From positions 1 through 64,000 of the forward strand of contig JAFECE010000007.1 of the NCBI GenBank assembly GCA_018242295.1: a DNA stretch of 64,000 bases. The letters run 5' to 3'. The position numbers and the translations under genes are program-made. Source of the stretch: Pseudomonadota bacterium. Its GTDB lineage: Bacteria > Pseudomonadota > Alphaproteobacteria > Rhizobiales > Hyphomicrobiaceae. This document shows positions 24,141 to 32,113 of this stretch, one piece after another. How positions within the stretch are numbered: position 1 is the first letter of the stretch; the number at the start of each line of letters is the position of its first letter. The notes beneath the pieces were generated by a model that ran no database searches, was not told the DNA's origin, and was given only the letters and a program-made list of their open reading frames with translations.

Positions 24141-24794
24141 ATGTTTCCGATTGGTGACGACGATTCCGAAGTAACCGCTGTTCCGATTGTCACGTACGTA
24201 CTGATTGCAGCCAACATCCTTTTCTTTCTTTTCGAACTCAGCGCCGGCGATCAATTCGTCGAGAACTGGGCGTTCATTCCGAGCCACTTCAGGGAGAGCC
24301 CGGCGACGGAATGGCCGACGATCTTCACCGCCATGTTCATGCACGGAGGCTGGATGCATCTCTTCGGCAATATGCTCTACCTCTATATCTTCGGCGATAA
24401 CGTCGAAGATAACTTTGGCCACGTAAAATACCTCGTCTTTTATCTCGTCGCAGGCATTGCCGCGACGTTCGCGCAGTATGTCTTCAACGAAGGCTCAAGC
24501 ATCCCGAACGTCGGCGCCTCGGGCGCAATCGCCGGCGTGCTCGGCGCCTACATTCTGATGTTCCCGCAATCGCGCGTCGACGTGCTCGTCGTTCGCCAGG
24601 TCATCTCGATGCCGGCGGTTGTCGTCATCGGCTTCTGGATCGTCCTGCAGCTTTTCAGCGGCGTCGGCTCCATCGCCAACACCGGAGCCGATGTCGGCGG
24701 CGTCGCCTACATGGCCCACGTCGGCGGCTTTGCAGCGGGCTTCGTGATCGCCTTATTGTTCGGACGACGCAGCGGTCCATCGGCGAGCGCGTGA
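24141..24794 (+). CDS. Rhomboid-family intramembrane serine protease
   Basis: This 217-residue protein has six or so membrane segments. The catalytic Ser128 lies in GASGAIAG and His193 in MAHVGGFAAG. MHGGWMHLFGNMLYLYIFGD (67-86) matches the conserved H-x2-H-N region of rhomboids. It should cleave other membrane proteins inside the bilayer; no substrate is suggested by the context. ATG 24141 is set by GAGGGGAG just upstream. Confidence 0.9.
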   Translation: MFPIGDDDSEVTAVPIVTYVLIAANILFFLFELSAGDQFVENWAFIPSHFRESPATEWPTIFTAMFMHGGWMHLFGNMLYLYIFGDNVEDNFGHVKYLVFYLVAGIAATFAQYVFNEGSSIPNVGASGAIAGVLGAYILMFPQSRVDVLVVRQVISMPAVVVIGFWIVLQLFSGVGSIANTGADVGGVAYMAHVGGFAAGFVIALLFGRRSGPSASA

Positions 24795-24820
24795 TGCGTC
24801 TCTCCTGCGCAGATTAAGAA

Positions 24821-24849
24821 AGCGAGCCGGAACCGAGTTCCGGCTCGCT
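24821..24849 (-). terminator. Hairpin between convergent genes, probable terminator
   Basis: A perfect 13-bp stem (AGCGAGCCGGAAC pairs with GTTCCGGCTCGCT) with a 3-nt loop lies between the rhomboid gene and the antiporter gene. On the minus strand the stem is followed by TTTCTTAAT, so it suits termination of the antiporter transcript best. Confidence 0.65.
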
Positions 24850-24886
24850 CCTGAACTCCGAAAGCCTTGCCGCGCGTGAAGCCGCG

Positions 24887-26167
24887 TCACCGGTTCTTCA
24901 GCATCGCCCGCTGCCGCAACGGCCTCAGCACCAGGATCGCGAGAACAGCCGCCAGGATGTTCATCGCCGCTGCCGTGTAGAACACCGCGTGCCAGCTCCC
25001 CGTCGTCTTCGTCAGGATGCTCGAGAACGGCACGAGCAGAGCCGCCGTTCCCTTCGCCGTGTAGAGAAGCCCGGCATTCGTCGTCGCGAATTTCGAGCCG
25101 AACGTATCGCCGCACGTCGCAGGGAAGAGACTGTAGATTTCGCCCCACGCAAAGAACACGAGACCCGTCAGCAGCACGAACGTGAATGGATCGTGCCCGA
25201 AGTGTCCGAGGGCGAGAATGCCGAGGCCTTCGATGCCGAAGGCGATGAACATCGTCGTCTCACGCCCGATCTTGTCTGAGACCCAGCCGAAGAACGGCCG
25301 CGTCACGCCATTGAGAACCCGGTCGAGCGAGAGCGCGAACGTCAGCGCCGGCAGCGTGATGCCGAGCAGGGAAACCGGCACGTCCGCAACCTTGAAATCT
25401 TTCGCGATGGGCGCGAGCTGCGCCGTGGCCATCAGGCCGCCGGCAGCCATCATCACGAACATCAGATACATGATCCAGAAGATCGGAGACTTGAGCATCT
25501 CGACCGGCGTGAATGACCGCCGCGACGTGACCAGCAACGTCGGTTGCACGCCGTGCGCCTCTTTCGGCGGCGCCCGGAGAACGAACGATGCAACGATGAT
25601 GACCGCCGATTGCAAGATTCCGAAATAGAGAAATGCCGCTTCGTAGCCCTCCCCGGCAATGACCTTCGAAATGGGAATGATCGTCAGTGCCGATCCCATT
25701 CCAAAACCCGCAGCCGTCACGCCTGCGGCAAAGCCGCGCCGGTCGGGAAACCATTTGAGCGCATTGCCGACGCACGTGCCGTAGACCGAGCCCGCGCCAA
25801 CGCCGCCGATCGCCTGTGCGACATAGAGCATCGCGAGCGAATCCGCGTAGGAGTTCATCACCCAGGCGATGCCGACGAGGAGGCCTCCGAACAGCACCAG
25901 CGGTCGCGGCCCGAACTTGTCTTCGAGATAGCCCTCGAACGGAATAAGCCACGTTTCCGTCAGCACAAAAATGGTGAATGCCCATTGGATGGCCGCCAAT
26001 TCCCAACCGAATTTGGTGGCCATGGGATTGACGAAGAGTGTCCAACCGTATTGCAGGTTGGCGATCATCGTCATGCACAGCACACCAAGAATAAGCTGCA
26101 GCCAGCGCTTCGTGTTTTGCGCGGCAAAGCTTGAAGCCGGAGCGCTGGACTCCGCTTGAGCAGTCAT
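24887..26167 (-). CDS. oxlT: Oxalate/formate antiporter family MFS transporter
   Basis: This 426-residue inner-membrane protein has twelve hydrophobic segments and belongs to the OFA branch of the major facilitator superfamily. Hallmarks are LQYGWTLFVNPMATKFGW after the first segment, EDKFGPRPL in loop 2-3 and GNALKWFPDRRGFAAG in loop 4-5. The family exchanges oxalate for formate or takes up related carboxylates. It diverges from the PanE2-like reductase with the oxalyl-CoA synthetase-like ligase beyond, which supports oxalate as the substrate. ATG 26167 has GAGGGGGA upstream; the longer frame starting at 26203 is less likely. Confidence 0.85.
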   Translation of the reverse strand: MTAQAESSAPASSFAAQNTKRWLQLILGVLCMTMIANLQYGWTLFVNPMATKFGWELAAIQWAFTIFVLTETWLIPFEGYLEDKFGPRPLVLFGGLLVGIAWVMNSYADSLAMLYVAQAIGGVGAGSVYGTCVGNALKWFPDRRGFAAGVTAAGFGMGSALTIIPISKVIAGEGYEAAFLYFGILQSAVIIVASFVLRAPPKEAHGVQPTLLVTSRRSFTPVEMLKSPIFWIMYLMFVMMAAGGLMATAQLAPIAKDFKVADVPVSLLGITLPALTFALSLDRVLNGVTRPFFGWVSDKIGRETTMFIAFGIEGLGILALGHFGHDPFTFVLLTGLVFFAWGEIYSLFPATCGDTFGSKFATTNAGLLYTAKGTAALLVPFSSILTKTTGSWHAVFYTAAAMNILAAVLAILVLRPLRQRAMLKNR

Positions 26168-26325
26168 CGGGACGTCCCCCTCGGGCTTGTAATTTTTTTT
26201 CATTTCGCACTAAAAGCGCTCACACATAAATCGCGAAAAATTACGCCCGGCAAGCGGAGCGTTGGCGCGATCTGCCAACAAAGATCTTGCTGCACCGCCA
26301 CTAAGACGTGAGGAATCCAAACTCG

Positions 26326-27330
26326 ATGAAAATTTGTGTCGTTGGAGCTGGCGGCATCGGCGGCTTGCTCGCTGCACGCTTGGCGCAATCGGGCGAAGAA
26401 GTCACTGTTATTGCGCGCGGTCCTCATCTCGCAGCGATCCGCGCAAACGGTCTGAAGCTCATTGAAGAGGACGGCCGCGAGAACGTCTCGCGCATCGCTG
26501 CGACCGATAAAATCGCGGAGGTCTCGGCGCAGAATCTCATCATCCTCGGCATGAAAGCGCATCAAGTCGCAGCTGTCGTTCGCGATCTTCCCGCGATGTA
26601 TGGCCGCGATACCGCCGTTCTCACCGCACAAAACGGCATTCCCTGGTGGTACTTTCTGCGCGTTCCGGGACCGCACGAGGGAAGACGGCTTGAGAGTGTC
26701 GATCCGAATGGGGTCATTGCCGACAATCTGCCCGCAGAACGTGTGATCGGCAGCGTCGTCTATCCTGCCGCCGAAATAACAGAGCCGGGCGTCATCAAGC
26801 ATATCGAAGGCAATCGCTTCTCGATCGCGGAAATTAATAACTCGAAAACTGAGCGTATCGTCCGCATTTCCGAGACGCTGCAGAAGGCCGGCTTCAAAGC
26901 TCCGGTGGCCGGGGACATTCGCGCCGAGATCTGGACGAAGCTTTGGGGAAACCTGAGTTTCAATCCCATCAGTGCGCTGACACATGCTACTCTTGAGGAT
27001 ATCTGCAAGTTTCAGCCGACCCGCGACGCCGCTGCGCGCCTCATGCGCGAAGCCCAATCCGTCGGCGAGGCGCTCGGCGTTCGATTCCGCATTCCGCTGG
27101 AGAAGCGGATCGCCGGCGCCGAAGCCGTCGGTCCGCATAAAACGTCGATGCTTCAAGACGTCGAGGCCGGCCGGGCCATAGAAGCCGATGCGCTGATCGG
27201 TTCGGTGATCGAACTCGGCCGGGTTGCCAACGTTCCTACCCCACAGATCGAGACGGTATATGCCTGCGTCAAGCTGCTGGCGGCAACGCTCGCGCACGAG
27301 GGCGGCCGTCTGAAAGTCGAAAAAGCCTGA
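26326..27330 (+). CDS. panE2: PanE2-like ketopantoate-reductase family protein, probable oxalyl-CoA reductase
   Basis: This 334-residue NADP(H)-dependent dehydrogenase of the ApbA/PanE family has the nucleotide motif VGAGGIGG at the N terminus. It also has EIWTKLWGNLSFNPISALT, which carries the catalytic Lys and the conserved Asn/Ser of the family. In Methylobacterium extorquens a PanE2 paralogue is known to reduce oxalyl-CoA to glyoxylate. The neighbours here (OxlT-type antiporter, oxalyl-CoA synthetase-like ligase) favour that role over pantothenate synthesis. True ketopantoate reductase remains the alternative. ATG 26326 has AGGAA 10 nt upstream. Confidence 0.72.
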   Translation: MKICVVGAGGIGGLLAARLAQSGEEVTVIARGPHLAAIRANGLKLIEEDGRENVSRIAATDKIAEVSAQNLIILGMKAHQVAAVVRDLPAMYGRDTAVLTAQNGIPWWYFLRVPGPHEGRRLESVDPNGVIADNLPAERVIGSVVYPAAEITEPGVIKHIEGNRFSIAEINNSKTERIVRISETLQKAGFKAPVAGDIRAEIWTKLWGNLSFNPISALTHATLEDICKFQPTRDAAARLMREAQSVGEALGVRFRIPLEKRIAGAEAVGPHKTSMLQDVEAGRAIEADALIGSVIELGRVANVPTPQIETVYACVKLLAATLAHEGGRLKVEKA

Positions 27331-27370
27331 CAACGGCGCCAGACGGCGACGCACCGGAGAGACAGCTGAA

Positions 27371-28891
27371 ATGACAACGAGCATGACCCTGCACGATCTT
27401 CTTAAGGCGGGCGAAGACCAAGCCCCCGCGATCAGAGCTTCGGGCGCCGAGCCATTAACCTATGCGGGCTTTCGCACGCTCGTCATGCGGACGATCGCGC
27501 GCCTCAACGACTTCGGAATTGGCCGCGGCGACCGCGTCGCCATCGTCCTCCCGAACGGACCTGAAATGGCGACTGCGTTCGTCGCCACCGCATCGGCAGC
27601 CACCGTCGCACCGCTCAATCCAGGCTATCGCGCCGACGAGTTCGACTTCTACATGTCGGACATCAACACGAAGGCGCTCATCGTCGAAGAGGGCAGCACC
27701 TCCCCCGCGGTTGGAGTGGCTGAAAAGCGGGGCATTACCGTCATCACGTTGAAGTCCGATCCCGCCCATGGCGCCGGCGCCTTCACGCTTTCGGCCGAAA
27801 CTGGACGCGAGCAGCCTGCCCGACCCGGACCGGCAGAAAGCGACGATACGGCGCTGATCCTGCACACGTCCGGCACGACGTCGCGTCCCAAGATCGTGCC
27901 GCTCACCCACGCGAACGTCGCAGCCTCTGCATCGAACATCGCGACCGCACTGAACCTCGCAAGCGGCGATCGCGCGCTCAACATCATGCCGCTCTTCCAC
28001 ATTCATGGGCTGATCGCGGGCGTCCTCGCGCCACTATCGCGCGGTGGCTCGATCTTCTGCACGCCCGGCTTCAACGCGCTGAAGTTTTTCTCTGCAATGG
28101 AAGAGGCCGCGCCCACCTGGTACACGGCGGTGCCGACGATGCACCAGGCGATCGTCGGCCGCGCCAGCCACAACCGCGAAATCATCGCGCGCCATAAGCT
28201 GCGCTTCATTCGATCGTCATCGTCGTCGCTGCCGCCGCAGGTGATTACGGAACTTGAAGCCGCCTTCGGTGCACCCGTCGTCGAAGCCTACGGCATGACC
28301 GAAGCGGCGCATCAGATGGCGTCGAACCCGATCGGCGGCACGCGGAAGCCCGGTACGGTCGGCATCGCCGCCGGACCCGAGGTCGCCATCATGGACCCGG
28401 ACGGCAATCTGCTGGCGGCGGGCGAGACGGGCGAAATCGTCATTCGCGGCGGCAACGTCACGGCCGGCTACGAGAACAATGACAAGGCCAACGCCGAAGC
28501 CTTTACGAACGGCTGGTTCCGGACGGGCGACCAGGGCACCATCGACACCGGCGGCTACATCACGATTACCGGACGCCTGAAGGAGATCATCAATCGCGGC
28601 GGCGAGAAGGTATCGCCGCGCGAGGTCGACGAAGTTCTGATGGATCACCCGGCCGTGCTGCAGGTCGTGACGTTTGCCGTGCCGCACGACAAGCTCGGCG
28701 AGGACGTCGCCGCCGCCGTCGTCCTCCGCGAAGGCAAGCAGGCGACGGAACGGGAGCTCCGCGATTTCGCCAGCGAGCACCTCGCGAACTTCAAGGTTCC
28801 GCGCAAAATCCTGCTGCTTCCCGAGATTCCGAAGGGCGCAACGGGCAAGCTCCAGCGCATCGGCCTCGCGCAGAAGCTCGGTCTCGCCTGA
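27371..28891 (+). CDS. AMP-dependent acyl-CoA ligase, probable oxalate-CoA ligase
   Basis: This 506-residue ANL-superfamily enzyme has the AMP-binding signature LHTSGTTSRPKIVPLTH at about 157-173. MPLFHIHGLIAGVLAPLSRG, TWYTAVPTMHQAI, SSSSSLPP and YGMTEAAHQMASNPIGGTRKPG closely resemble plant AAE3 and yeast Pcs60 oxalyl-CoA synthetases. GRLKEIINRGGEKVSP is the A8 hinge, and the C-terminal catalytic Lys is in PKGATGKLQRI. It would activate oxalate with ATP and CoA, feeding the reductase 40 bp upstream in the same operon. GGAGAGA precedes the start. Confidence 0.8.
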   Translation: MTTSMTLHDLLKAGEDQAPAIRASGAEPLTYAGFRTLVMRTIARLNDFGIGRGDRVAIVLPNGPEMATAFVATASAATVAPLNPGYRADEFDFYMSDINTKALIVEEGSTSPAVGVAEKRGITVITLKSDPAHGAGAFTLSAETGREQPARPGPAESDDTALILHTSGTTSRPKIVPLTHANVAASASNIATALNLASGDRALNIMPLFHIHGLIAGVLAPLSRGGSIFCTPGFNALKFFSAMEEAAPTWYTAVPTMHQAIVGRASHNREIIARHKLRFIRSSSSSLPPQVITELEAAFGAPVVEAYGMTEAAHQMASNPIGGTRKPGTVGIAAGPEVAIMDPDGNLLAAGETGEIVIRGGNVTAGYENNDKANAEAFTNGWFRTGDQGTIDTGGYITITGRLKEIINRGGEKVSPREVDEVLMDHPAVLQVVTFAVPHDKLGEDVAAAVVLREGKQATERELRDFASEHLANFKVPRKILLLPEIPKGATGKLQRIGLAQKLGLA

Positions 28892-28913
28892 ATATCGAGC
28901 CAACACTATGACG

Positions 28914-28946
28914 AAAAACGCCCGGCGCGAGGCCGGGCGTTTTTTT
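28914..28946 (+). terminator. Strong intrinsic terminator after the ligase gene
   Basis: A perfect 13-bp inverted repeat (AAAAACGCCCGGC / GCCGGGCGTTTTT) with a 5-nt loop runs into a T-tract on the plus strand. A matching A-tract lies on the other side, so it can work in both directions. It ends the reductase-ligase operon and also the convergent MFS gene. Confidence 0.9.
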
Positions 28947-28970
28947 ATGCTTGGATGCTGAGAGAGGCGT

Positions 28971-30287
28971 TCAGCGCTCGTTCGATTCGAGCTGCCTGCT
29001 CATCGCCAGCGCCAGCAGCGTGCAGACGGCGCCCGAGAGCAGATATCCGCCCGCCGCCATCAGACCGAACTGGCTCGACAGATAGAGCGCGACGAGCGGC
29101 GCAAACCCGGCGCCGACGAGCCACGCGAGGTCGGTGGTCAGCGCCGATCCCGTGTAACGGTAGGCCTTCGCGAAGTTGGACGCGACCGCACCGGAAGACT
29201 GTCCGAATGACAGTCCGAGCAGAATGAAGCCCGACACCATGAAGATCACTTCTCCGACGTCGCCGCCATTGAGAAGCTGAGGTGCGAAGCCGCTGAACGC
29301 TGCGATGGCTGCCGCGGTCGCGGAGAGCAGGTTTCTGCGACCAACCCGGTCGGCCACATATCCCGAGAGGACAATCGTCACGAGACCGACCATCGCACCG
29401 ATGAGCTCGATAACGAGAAAGCGCGTCGGGCTCTGGTCCGTGTAGAGGAACACCCAGGAGAGCGGGAACACCGTGACCATGTGAAAAAGCGCGAAGCTCG
29501 CGAGCGGCGCGAACGCACCGATGACGATATGCGCGCCCTCAGCTCGGATCGTCTCGCCGATGGGCTTCGGCTCGAGTTCCTTCTTCTCGAAGTGTTCGGT
29601 GAATTCCGGCGTCACGACCATACGCAGACGTGCGAAGAGCGCAACGACGTTGATCGCGAAGGCCACGAAGAACGGAAAGCGCCAGCCCCAATCGAGGAAA
29701 TCTTCGCTTGAAAGGTTAGACGCGAAATAAGCAAAAAGAGCGGCCGCAACCATCAACCCGAGCGGCGCACCAAGCTGCGGGATCATGGCGTACCAGCCAC
29801 GCCGGTTTTCAGGCGCATTCATCGCGAGCAGCGCAGGCAGGCCGTCCCACTCGCCGCCGAGCGCCAGACCCTGGCCGATCCGGAACGCCGCGAGAAGCAG
29901 AGCCGAGACCCAGCCCAACTGCTCGTAACCCGGAAGAAAGGCGATCGCGACTGTCGAACTGCCGAGCAGGAAAAGGGTGATCGTCAGCTTCACGCCTTTG
30001 CCGTAGGCGCGATCGATGGCCATGAATATGACGGTGCCGATGGGCCGGGCGACGAAAGCGAGCGCGAAGATCGCAAACGAATAGAGCGTGCCGGTCAGCG
30101 CATCGAGATGCGGAAAGACGAGCTTCGGAAACACGATGACCGAGGCGATGGCGTAAACGAAGAAATCGAAAAATTCCGAAGTCCGTCCGATGATGACCCC
30201 GATGGCGATCTCGCCGGGATCAACGTGGCCGTGCCGGGCATTTACGATTCGCGCGTCGCGTTCGAACGTGGCTGAAGCTCCACTCAT
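28971..30287 (-). CDS. MHS-family MFS transporter (metabolite:proton symporter)
   Basis: This 438-residue polytopic membrane protein has the layout and motifs of the MHS branch. They are GRTSEFFDFFVYAIASVIVF in the first segment, FVARPIGTVIFMAIDRAYGK in loop 2-3 and LAAFRIGQGLALGGEWDGLP in segment 4-5. Members transport organic acids such as citrate, ketoglutarate or shikimate with protons. The substrate is not evident; closeness to the oxalate genes makes a small carboxylate likely but it is transcribed separately. A 66-bp element shared with the cydA upstream region lies 66-131 nt before its start. Confidence 0.85.
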   Translation of the reverse strand: MSGASATFERDARIVNARHGHVDPGEIAIGVIIGRTSEFFDFFVYAIASVIVFPKLVFPHLDALTGTLYSFAIFALAFVARPIGTVIFMAIDRAYGKGVKLTITLFLLGSSTVAIAFLPGYEQLGWVSALLLAAFRIGQGLALGGEWDGLPALLAMNAPENRRGWYAMIPQLGAPLGLMVAAALFAYFASNLSSEDFLDWGWRFPFFVAFAINVVALFARLRMVVTPEFTEHFEKKELEPKPIGETIRAEGAHIVIGAFAPLASFALFHMVTVFPLSWVFLYTDQSPTRFLVIELIGAMVGLVTIVLSGYVADRVGRRNLLSATAAAIAAFSGFAPQLLNGGDVGEVIFMVSGFILLGLSFGQSSGAVASNFAKAYRYTGSALTTDLAWLVGAGFAPLVALYLSSQFGLMAAGGYLLSGAVCTLLALAMSRQLESNER

Positions 30288-30352
30288 CGGCCGTTATTGC
30301 TCCTTGAACGATGCCCGGCTCTGCGCGCAATGCGTCCGCGAGCCCCTAAGCT

Positions 30353-30418
30353 AGCTTCTTGTCCCGGTCCCAACGGCGAGGGCATTGGGCAAATTGTCCA
30401 ATGTGCCGGATGCCGCAG
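30353..30418 (-). repeat. 66-bp upstream element, copy A (before the MHS transporter)
   Basis: Read on the minus strand toward the transporter, this 66-bp segment matches 31985-32050 at 60 of 66 positions. It contains ATTGGACAATTTGCCCAAT, in which ATTGG and CCAAT form an inverted repeat with a 9-bp centre, and GTTGGGACCGGGACAAGAAG. The rest of the 335-bp spacer (30288-30622) shows no gene. Confidence 0.75.
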
Positions 30419-30622
30419 CATCGACGCGCGATCATCTTTCGCACCCTTAGTTGCCGGGCAAAGACCAATTCGAGAAAGGCGTTATAGAGGTCTTTAGCGG
30501 GATACGCACGAGCGCATGCGGCGAACCGATTCACGTTGCAATTCGGAGCTGCGGCGGGAAGACCTTTGCGAGGGAACTCGCCGGCTTGCAGAGCCACTCT
30601 CCGGCATTCGGCCGTCACGCCG

Positions 30623-30907
30623 TCAGCGATCGGAAGCACGCTTGCCCGCTCCGGGAAGTATCGGTCCGGGAACAGGCGAAGGACCAAGCTGGTTGCCGGC
30701 CGGTCCGTCTTTCAAATAGTCGCGGCGATGAGAATTCGGTCGATCGATCGGAACGACCGGCGCCGTCCGGTAGGACTTTTCGGCTTCTTTCTGAATTCGG
30801 ATACTTTCGGGCTCCCAATCGGCGAAGGCTGAGATGCCGAATGGGGCGATTCCGAGAACCGCGATCAAGACCGCAATCCCGCCCCGCTTTCGCTTTAGCA
30901 ATCGCAT
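30623..30907 (-). CDS. Small predicted exported protein
   Basis: This is a possible 94-residue protein with a basic start (MRLLKRKRGG), a hydrophobic stretch (IAVLIAVLGIAPFGISAFA) ending in a signal-peptidase-like ALA/AFA site, and a polar Pro-rich mature part (WEPESIRIQKEAEKSYRT). AGGAG and CAGG lie just before ATG 30907. No family is recognised. The signal peptide and ribosome binding site argue for a real gene, but the overlapping plus-strand ORF means certainty is limited. Bases 30908-31180 beyond it hold nothing I can identify. Confidence 0.45.
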   Translation of the reverse strand: MRLLKRKRGGIAVLIAVLGIAPFGISAFADWEPESIRIQKEAEKSYRTAPVVPIDRPNSHRRDYLKDGPAGNQLGPSPVPGPILPGAGKRASDR

Positions 30908-31180
30908 CCTGAGGCTCCTCAACTCAAGCTCTCGGAAGCGCCTCCCATCGCGGAAAATATTTTAAACGCCGTCCAATTCAAAAACGTTCGGCGATGACGA
31001 GATGCGCATACTCAATTTTGATGAAAGCCATCGTAGAACGCGCGAATAGGGGCGTGACCTAAAGTTCAAAAATCCATTCACGAATGGTCAACTAGTTTTT
31101 GACACTTTACTCTCAAAACACTGAAAAATCATACAAAGTTTCCGTCATACTCAATTCAAGCAATTTCTAATTCTGGGCTC

Positions 31181-31306
31181 ATGGAAAAATTCTCCGATCC
31201 TCCCGACGACCGCGACAAGCCTCCAGTAAACAATCCACTCATGTTGGCGCTGTTGTGCGCTGTTCTCGTTGGCCTTGCCACGTGGACCATTTTTCTCGTT
31301 CGCTGA
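31181..31306 (+). CDS. Putative 41-residue single-pass membrane protein
   Basis: A short frame encodes MEKFSDPPDDRDKPPVNNPL followed by one hydrophobic segment (MLALLCAVLVGLATWTIFLV) and Arg-stop. The charged, Pro-rich cytoplasmic start and clean membrane helix look like a real small membrane protein. No strong ribosome binding site is visible, so it may be fortuitous. Confidence 0.35.
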   Translation: MEKFSDPPDDRDKPPVNNPLMLALLCAVLVGLATWTIFLVR

Positions 31307-31475
31307 CACTTCTCCTGCAAAACGATCACGATCGGCGATGGGGTAGATAATCCGGCCCGGAACCTGCGAGCCTTGGCGCGCGTCTGCCATGCTCCGCTTG
31401 CGCCATCCTATGGTTTCCCCATGTAAATGAAATGGGTAGAAGCCGCTGCGCCGCCCGCGAAGAGGAGTTCGAGCA

Positions 31476-31745
31476 ATGAAAAACGTCATTATCCTTGCGG
31501 CTGCTGCCACACTGGTCCTGGCGGCGCCCGTGCTGGCCCAGTCGACGAGCGGTTCACAATCTTCGGGCAGGTCGGACACAATCATCCGCACGCCACCGAG
31601 CACTTCGAACGGCACCGGATCGGGGACATCGGGTAGCGTCGGATCGCCGACGCCGAATTATCCAGGCCGCGTGCGCGACTTCAACAACCCGTCAACGACC
31701 GACTTTAATATCCGGAATAGAGCCATCGGCGTACCCCGGCGATAG
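31476..31745 (+). CDS. Small exported Ser/Thr/Gly-rich protein
   Basis: This 89-residue protein has a textbook signal peptide (MKNVIILAAAATLVLAAPVLA-Q). The mature part is short, disordered and rich in Ser, Thr, Gly and Pro (SGSQSSGRSDTIIRTPPSTS, then PNYPGRVRDFNNPSTTDF). AGAGGAG precedes the start at 9 nt. No family or function is recognised. It lies between two copies of the 66-bp element. Confidence 0.6.
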   Translation: MKNVIILAAAATLVLAAPVLAQSTSGSQSSGRSDTIIRTPPSTSNGTGSGTSGSVGSPTPNYPGRVRDFNNPSTTDFNIRNRAIGVPRR

Positions 31746-31928
31746 TCGCATTGTCACAATTACCCTCGTTTGAATTTTTATTTGTCCATTCGCTCGTCTT
31801 GAGCGAATAAATCGATGCTCGGCTGTTGATTCCCGAAAACATGTTCTCTATTTAGCCGTTCATTAAGTCCGAGCAGATGACGCTCTTTCGTAGCGGCTGC
31901 GATAGGTTCACGGTGTCCGACACTATTT

Positions 31929-32113
31929 CGAGTTGAAGGCAACGGACGTGCGGATGTTGTTCCGGTACCAAGGCGGAAGCAAAACTGCGGCATCCGCCAG
32001 ATTGGACAATTTACCCAATGTCCTAGCGGTTGGGACCGGGACAAGAAGCTCGCGAACGAGTTGAAGGCAAAGGACGTGCGAACGTTGCGCGTTCGGATAC
32101 CGAGGCGGAAACA
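31929..32113. repeat. Pair of diverged direct repeats before cydA
   Basis: The segments 31929-31978 and 32057-32110 both read CGAGTTGAAGGCAA[C/A]GGACGTGCG... and end TACC[A/G]AGGCGGAA; the second has four extra bases. The 66-bp element (31985-32050) lies between them. The second copy reaches the cydA start codon and supplies its GAGGCGG ribosome binding site. The rest of 31746-32112 shows nothing else recognisable. Confidence 0.65.
31985..32050 (+). repeat. 66-bp upstream element, copy B (before cydA)
   Basis: This is the second copy of the element at 30353-30418, in inverted orientation in the window but pointing toward its downstream gene in the same way. It starts 128 bp and ends 63 bp before the cydA ATG. 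It includes ATTGGACAATTTACCCAAT with the ATTGG/CCAAT arms and GTTGGGACCGGGACAAGAAG. Confidence 0.75.

Follow-up and report, generated by a model that had tools for sequence, protein, structure and literature searches.

A predicted oxalate-assimilation module in a Hyphomicrobiaceae genome

We identified three adjacent genes that are predicted to form an oxalate-assimilation module in a 64,000-nucleotide stretch of DNA (hereafter, the window; positions 1 to 64,000 of contig JAFECE010000007.1, assembly GCA_018242295.1) from an alphaproteobacterium of the Hyphomicrobiaceae. In this module, an antiporter of the OFA family would import oxalate, an ANL-family ligase of the AAE3 type would activate it to oxalyl-coenzyme A (oxalyl-CoA), and a PanE2-type dehydrogenase would reduce oxalyl-CoA to glyoxylate, which the cell would use together with another energy substrate. 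We place the probability of this reading at roughly 0.78. From the sequence, it draws on the gene families, their key residues, a recurring ligase-PanE2 pair, and a genome in which neither oxalyl-CoA decarboxylase (Oxc) nor formyl-CoA transferase (Frc) exceeds its model cut-off; the chemistry of PanE2 is published for relatives. We infer the substrate of the ligase, formate as counter-ion, the entry of glyoxylate into the serine cycle, and the role of oxalate as a co-substrate. An initial annotation had proposed three open reading frames between 24887 and 28946, and all were found in place.

The transporter passed the curated equivalog model for oxalate/formate antiporters (TIGR04259; 645.8 bits, cut-off of 335) and matched OxlT of Oxalobacter (8hpj; 252.2 bits, aligned residues 32-427). 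The residues named for the oxalate site of OxlT include Arg272, Lys355, Gln34, and Thr38 (PMC10070484), all of which are identical in the window protein (R302, K384, Q51, and T55, respectively), as are the counterparts of Y35 (Y52), N268 (N298), W324 (W353), and Y328 (Y357). Two positions differ, with F167 replacing Y150 and Y381 replacing W352. The position of Lys355 is occupied by Cys in a lactate transporter aligned alongside. The model pass and the retained Arg/Lys pair bear out the assignment of this protein to the OFA type, as initially annotated.

The ligase has AMP-binding and AMP-binding_C domains, and its best four relatives of solved structure are all oxalyl-CoA synthetases (5ie0, 429.8 bits; 6qjz, 412.5 bits; 8aff, 378.1 bits; and the shorter 8atd, 269.3 bits), compared with 221.7 bits to FadD13 and 218.7 bits to malonyl-CoA synthetase. 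It shares 45.5% identity (224 of 492 aligned residues) with AtAAE3 of Arabidopsis (5ie0). In a tree of 39 rows, made by a quick method without bootstrap and with flagged long branches that in part meet (L185, L186, Pcs60, and FadD13), a single group, with a Shimodaira-Hasegawa-like approximate likelihood ratio test (SH-aLRT) value of 98, unites the bacterial ligases with AAE3 of plants and Pcs60 of yeast and leaves outside FadD13 and six same-order paralogues of 33-38% identity. His214, Arg286, Ser289, and His319 of AtAAE3, which we take to be acyl-pocket residues, correspond to H210, R281, S284, and H314 of the ligase and are invariant in 18 bacterial rows, the window included. The scores and the tree rule out a FadD-like or malonyl-CoA synthetase-like enzyme, and the resemblance to AAE3/Pcs60 that had been suggested earlier extends to placement in the tree. 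By homology, the ligase is thus a predicted oxalyl-CoA synthetase, with oxalate as its putative substrate.

The dehydrogenase combines ApbA (PF02558, 95 bits) and ApbA_C (PF08546, 108.5 bits) domains and is 59.8% identical to the PanE2-type protein of Methylorubrum zatmanii and 50.9% identical to that of Cupriavidus metallidurans, but only 24.1% identical to the KPR-family protein of its own genome. That KPR-family gene (C7:56972-57856) is itself over its cut-off (207.7 bits), making it unlikely that the cell has no other ketopantoate reductase than the window dehydrogenase. A 39-row tree nests the dehydrogenase between the Methylobacterium and Cupriavidus PanE2-type rows; because the only KPR row lies on a flagged long branch, this tree, in which M. 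zatmanii stands in for Methylobacterium extorquens AM1, describes kinship rather than a tested boundary. Residues N103, K205, S274, and E286, whose KPR counterparts have catalytic roles, are invariant across 38 rows. P106, W108, Y109, and F110 are also invariant, but are gapped in the KPR protein of the same genome. The PanE2-like identity first proposed for this protein is upheld by its grouping with Methylobacterium PanE2 rather than with its own KPR, and we regard it by homology as a predicted oxalyl-CoA reductase. Purified PanE of M. extorquens AM1 formed NADPH from glyoxylate, CoA, and NADP with a Km for glyoxylate of 0.36 mM, in a reversible reaction assayed in the oxidative direction (PMC9485241), and PanE2 has been employed as an oxalyl-CoA reductase elsewhere (PMC8411744).

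Oxalate oxidation genes and host metabolism

Across the whole host genome (4.05 Mb, 11 contigs, 99.99% complete), the best Oxc match reached 197.3 bits (TIGR03254 cut-off, 739.4), and the best Frc match reached 160.8 bits (TIGR03253 cut-off, 504.2). The initial observation that neither gene lies in the window thus extends to the genome, where none exceeds its cut-off. With neither Oxc nor Frc, the two oxalate-degrading enzymes searched for, over cut-off, oxalate is likelier to be a co-substrate or a salvaged compound than a sole growth substrate, and the host probably draws no energy or reducing power from it. Hence, the earlier proposal of a separate oxalate-assimilation route stands with respect to the gene families and the genome-wide lack of Oxc and Frc over cut-off, but is better framed as co-assimilation or salvage than as growth on oxalate alone.

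The host has methylotroph-type equipment, namely genes related to tetrahydromethanopterin (H4MPT) and pyrroloquinoline quinone (PQQ). These include methenyl-H4MPT cyclohydrolase (MCH; 383.7 bits) and three PQQ alcohol dehydrogenases over cut-off; among nine proteins scanned around mch, seven matched PQQ- or H4MPT-associated families and two matched nothing at E 1e-40. Crotonyl-CoA carboxylase/reductase (Ccr) is present (625.1 bits), and the genome gave no match to isocitrate lyase at E 1e-40 or to glyoxylate carboligase (Gcl) at E 1e-150. The closest Hyphomicrobium relative (G297, the genome of locus L038) differs in having an isocitrate lyase family match. On the two methylotrophy markers searched, MCH and PQQ alcohol dehydrogenase, and the lack of Gcl and isocitrate lyase matches at these thresholds, entry of glyoxylate into a serine cycle is plausible in this host.

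In the mechanism we propose, the antiporter would import oxalate, probably in exchange for formate, which as an intermediate of one-carbon (C1) oxidation in a methylotroph would be a natural counter-ion. The ligase would then convert oxalate to oxalyl-CoA at the cost of ATP, and the reductase would use NADPH to release glyoxylate and free CoA. Glyoxylate would feed glycine and serine metabolism or malate formation, with energy and reducing power supplied by another substrate, such as methanol. Since no isocitrate lyase was found, glyoxylate would otherwise be regenerated by the ethylmalonyl-CoA pathway, and oxalate would top it up by a short cut that bypasses this pathway. ANL ligases are normally driven toward the thioester by pyrophosphate hydrolysis, which makes it very improbable that the module instead runs in reverse, from glyoxylate through oxalyl-CoA to oxalate, with recovery of ATP and export of the product. 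Such a direction would exploit the reversibility of the PanE reaction, assayed oxidatively (PMC9485241), and the nature of OFA transporters as exchangers (PMC10070484), but it also sits poorly with the Cupriavidus necator homologue, which supports growth on oxalate (PMC7486775).

Recurrence of the ligase-PanE2 pair

A scan of named genomes yielded 573 ligase loci, the best 80 of which (L038-L117) were analyzed and therefore favor close relatives. Of these, 48 extend ≥5 kb from the ligase in both directions, and 32 have <5 kb on one or both sides. Genes were counted at bit-score thresholds that we set ourselves (Oxc, 400; Frc, 300; antiporter, 250; PanE2, 150), and an antiporter fragment cut off in L106 (166 bits) was left out. 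In 46 of the 48 well-flanked loci, the ligase has a PanE2-type gene no more than 6.5 kb away on its own strand; the pairing is thus not due to chance. Over all 80 loci, short contigs included, such a gene is present in 67, always on the ligase strand, and is separated from the ligase by at most 200 bases in 43 and by other genes in 24.

The pair also recurs in a second sample, a draw of 297 genomes from the order of the window, where ligase holders (at least 57% identity) number 29, its own genome included. In 25 of the other 28 (L139-L166), the ligase and a PanE2-type gene are at most 200 bases apart; the latter lies upstream in four, which are the four with an antiporter, and downstream in 21, where the fetched stretches held no antiporter. 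Two gene orders therefore exist, PanE2-ligase in the window and in Methylobacterium-type loci and ligase-PanE2 in 21 of the 28 other order genomes. The fetched stretches of the remaining three (L140, L141, and L164) contain the ligase and no PanE2-type gene.

The neighbors of the pair vary. Within 6.5 kb of the ligase in the 80 named-genome loci, and with families named from one representative each, we counted OFA antiporters in 16, TctC of a tripartite tricarboxylate transporter in 29, TauE-type exporters in 18, and FAH-family hydrolases in 29. Tripartite tricarboxylate transporters and FAH-family hydrolases are frequent by the pair, for example, in L041, L058, and L083. This variety suggests exchangeable uptake systems and some role for the hydrolase. 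On plasmids, a ligase-PanE2 pair of Rhodobacteraceae SC52 (L183) lies by an ABC transporter of four genes, a FadR-type regulator, and a FAH-family gene, and NAD(P) transhydrogenase genes are close to PanE2 relatives in Azospirillum (L181, with oxlT), Phyllobacterium (L182, with gcl and hyi close by), and Skermanella (L184); the Cupriavidus plasmid stretch is unannotated. The transhydrogenases could supply NADPH, and these neighbors thus fit an NADPH-using step toward glyoxylate. Three loci labeled Akkermansia, Chloroflexi, and Synechocystis (L046, L092, and L098) are of the proteobacterial type and probably come from contaminated or mislabeled bins.

Oxalate oxidation does not follow the ligase. 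We examined 51 genomes, comprising 47 holder rows and four same-genus non-holders; two rows with identical coordinates (G304 and G272) were counted once, and the resulting 46 distinct holders include 18 genomes reached through loci, for which completeness is not stated. Oxc exceeded its cut-off in seven of the 51 rows and Frc in the same seven, representing six distinct genomes, all of them holders, of which the three named ones are Methylobacterium or Methylorubrum. In 40 of the 46 distinct ligase-bearing genomes, neither gene exceeded its cut-off. In Vineibacter (G299) and two Caldovatus genomes (G311 and G314), an Oxc-like and a Frc-like gene lie side by side, each scoring under its cut-off, and 37 of the 46 are without even such weak pairs. 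In the order sample, Oxc was over cut-off in 59 of 297 genomes, that is, in four of 29 ligase holders and in 55 of 268 others, such that the ligase is not tied to Oxc. At thresholds of 400 bits for Oxc and 300 bits for Frc, none of the 108 ligase loci contained either gene. The methylotroph setting is likewise not general to the pair, since matches to isocitrate lyase (17), Gcl (8), MCH (25), and Ccr (34) vary among the 51 rows.

Relation to known oxalate systems

Oxalate assimilation through the oxalyl-CoA reductase PanE2, together with an oxalyl-CoA synthetase, was reportedly described in M. extorquens AM1 by Schneider et al. in 2012; its reductase is of the same family as that of the window, and the chemistry is known in kind there. 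In both M. zatmanii (L060) and Methylobacterium sp. Leaf123 (L055), a single locus combines an antiporter (63-64% identity), a PanE2-type gene (59-60%), and the ligase (71%); the antiporter there points the same way as the pair, whereas in the window it is divergent. Further, six of the seven Methylobacterium-type holders (G174, G272, G117, G196, G300, G303, and G310) have both Oxc and Frc over cut-off, the exception being Methylobacterium sp. J-076 (G310), while the window genome has neither. Four Methylobacterium-type frc-oxc stretches lie apart from the pair, carry antiporters of their own, and at E 1e-10 matched neither PanE2 nor the ligase. What sets the window genome apart from M. extorquens is therefore the occurrence of the oxalyl-CoA synthetase-PanE2 pair without Oxc or Frc over cut-off. 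Among the titles and abstract openings listed by a literature search, with most subscription journals outside its reach, there was no paper on the pair in such genomes.

A PanE2-type enzyme, the CoA-acylating glyoxylate dehydrogenase called ApbA2, shares 51% identity with the M. extorquens protein and is needed for the full growth rate on oxalate in C. necator, where its deletion lengthened the doubling time from 6.5 h to 10 h (PMC7486775). There, ApbA2 works beside frc-oxc, the passages on this system mention no ligase, and glyoxylate enters the Gcl glycerate pathway, whereas the window genome has neither Oxc nor Frc over cut-off and no Gcl match at the threshold given above. The AAE3 and Pcs60 proteins of plants and yeast are homologous to the window ligase, but the partner differs, as oxalyl-CoA in Arabidopsis is linked to a decarboxylase (PMC8004701) and in the window to a predicted reductase. 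Finally, the classical OxlT-Frc-Oxc system shares with the window an OFA antiporter with oxalate-binding residues, and differs in activating oxalate by CoA transfer rather than by the predicted ATP-dependent ligase.

Weighing the alternatives

Several observations count against a dedicated oxalate-assimilation module. First, the two enzymes are not named as such by curated models, since the dehydrogenase passes one called "2-dehydropantoate 2-reductase" (NF005089; 446.9 bits, cut-off of 223) and the ligase stays below cut-off for all 25 NCBIfam models listed. Second, the antiporter lies on the strand opposite to the pair and is rarely found with it, in only 16 of 80 and four of 28 loci. Third, the ligase orthologue is missing from four genomes of the same genus. 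Fourth, C. necator no longer grows on oxalate once frc-oxc is lost, a defect that the authors blame on missing reducing power (PMC7486775); loss of frc would also remove oxalate activation, and because this explains the defect equally well, the analogy with a co-substrate role is a weak one.

The scarcity of the antiporter bears on a reading in which the chemistry is the same and the purpose is not, namely that the pair clears oxalate formed inside the cell or leaking in, for detoxification or salvage rather than nutrition. No OFA antiporter of at least 250 bits accompanies the pair in 24 of 28 order loci or in 64 of 80 named-genome loci, short contigs included, and Oxc is below cut-off in most holders. 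We nevertheless consider this unlikely for the window, although the most credible of the alternatives, given that an oxalate-type antiporter stands divergently beside the pair and that L038 and L039 share this arrangement.

That the ligase passes none of the 25 NCBIfam models listed would suit a different substrate, with ligase and dehydrogenase acting on another short acid, such as a 2-oxo acid, malonate, or glycolate, beside an antiporter that is an accidental neighbor, as would the tripartite tricarboxylate transporters, TauE-type exporters, and FAH-family hydrolases found by the pair in many loci. This is improbable in view of the 429.8 bits that the ligase scores against oxalyl-CoA synthetase, compared with 218.7 bits against malonyl-CoA synthetase, its clade with AAE3/Pcs60, the retained equivalents of R272 and K355 in the antiporter, and the activity measured for a PanE2 relative (PMC9485241). 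We therefore favor import, activation, and reduction of oxalate as the function of the three genes.

Organization of the locus

The nearest named relative in the scan, a Hyphomicrobium sp. bin (L038), is 97% identical in all three proteins, and its alignment with the window and L039 informed the start codons (Table 1). For the dehydrogenase, the alignment favors the conserved ATG 26326 over GTG 26308; for the antiporter, ATG 26169 is more likely than ATG 26203, which is not kept in L039. The divergent gap contains one inverted repeat of 8 bases, its arms 38 bases apart, and no sigma-70-type promoter was matched in 24700-30800, this gap included. A strong intrinsic terminator, consisting of a hairpin and a T run, follows the ligase, and RNA of positions 28885-28955 folds at -28.5 kcal/mol (z of -3.64), with none of 200 shuffles equally stable. 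The MHS-type transporter that converges on the ligase occurs at this place only in the window and in two of the 80 loci, L038 and L039.

Table 1. Features of the predicted oxalate module and its downstream neighbor (window coordinates)
Feature	Position	Strand	Basis and remarks
OFA-family oxalate/formate antiporter (OxlT-like)	24887..26203	-	TIGR04259, OxlT 8hpj match, residue mapping; likely true start ATG 26169
Divergent intergenic region, antiporter/dehydrogenase	26204..26325	.	Sequence reading; alignment with L038 and L039
PanE2/ApbA2-type oxalyl-CoA reductase (CoA-acylating glyoxylate dehydrogenase), by homology	26326..27330	+	ApbA and ApbA_C domains, identities, tree
ANL-family oxalyl-CoA synthetase (AAE3/Pcs60-like), by homology	27371..28891	+	Identity to AtAAE3 5ie0, tree clade
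Intrinsic terminator closing the panE2-ligase unit	28914..28944	+	Terminator scan, RNA fold
MHS-type MFS transporter; module membership unproven	28971..30287	-	TIGR00883, 282.1 bits, below cut-off of 443.45

A mobile or phage origin was rejected on the plasmid and phage ligase matches and on the G+C content of the module (56-65% in 1-kb windows), which is similar to that of its surroundings. Among the 25 of 31 plasmid matches listed, the top ligases are those of Methylobacterium bullatum (68.6% identity, on a 2.8-Mb replicon) and of a Rhodobacteraceae plasmid (60.3%), and the top phage ligase, among the five of 15 matches listed, is 38.9% identical. G+C content falls locally to 0.527 at 31000-31999, between the MHS transporter and a cytochrome bd gene.

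Implications for oxalate use

Beyond the window, we tentatively propose, at somewhat less than even odds, that the ligase-PanE2 pair is a widespread, self-standing salvage core, found mostly in genomes without oxalate oxidation and served by exchangeable transporters, and that in methylotrophs negative for isocitrate lyase, such as this host, it would turn external oxalate into anaplerotic glyoxylate, taking the place of the ethylmalonyl-CoA pathway while the cell grows on C1 compounds. For oxalate users, a recent genomic survey was built on one toolkit of Oxc, Frc, and OxlT and a second of Gcl, hydroxypyruvate reductase, and serine-glyoxylate transaminase; its main text names oxalyl-CoA reductase and does not contain the words synthetase or PanE (PMC12927642). 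If the pair does assimilate oxalate without Oxc and Frc, surveys of this kind would miss many possible users, including methylotrophs and Burkholderiales, and environmental oxalate would be linked, in a testable manner, to C1 growth through the supply of glyoxylate.

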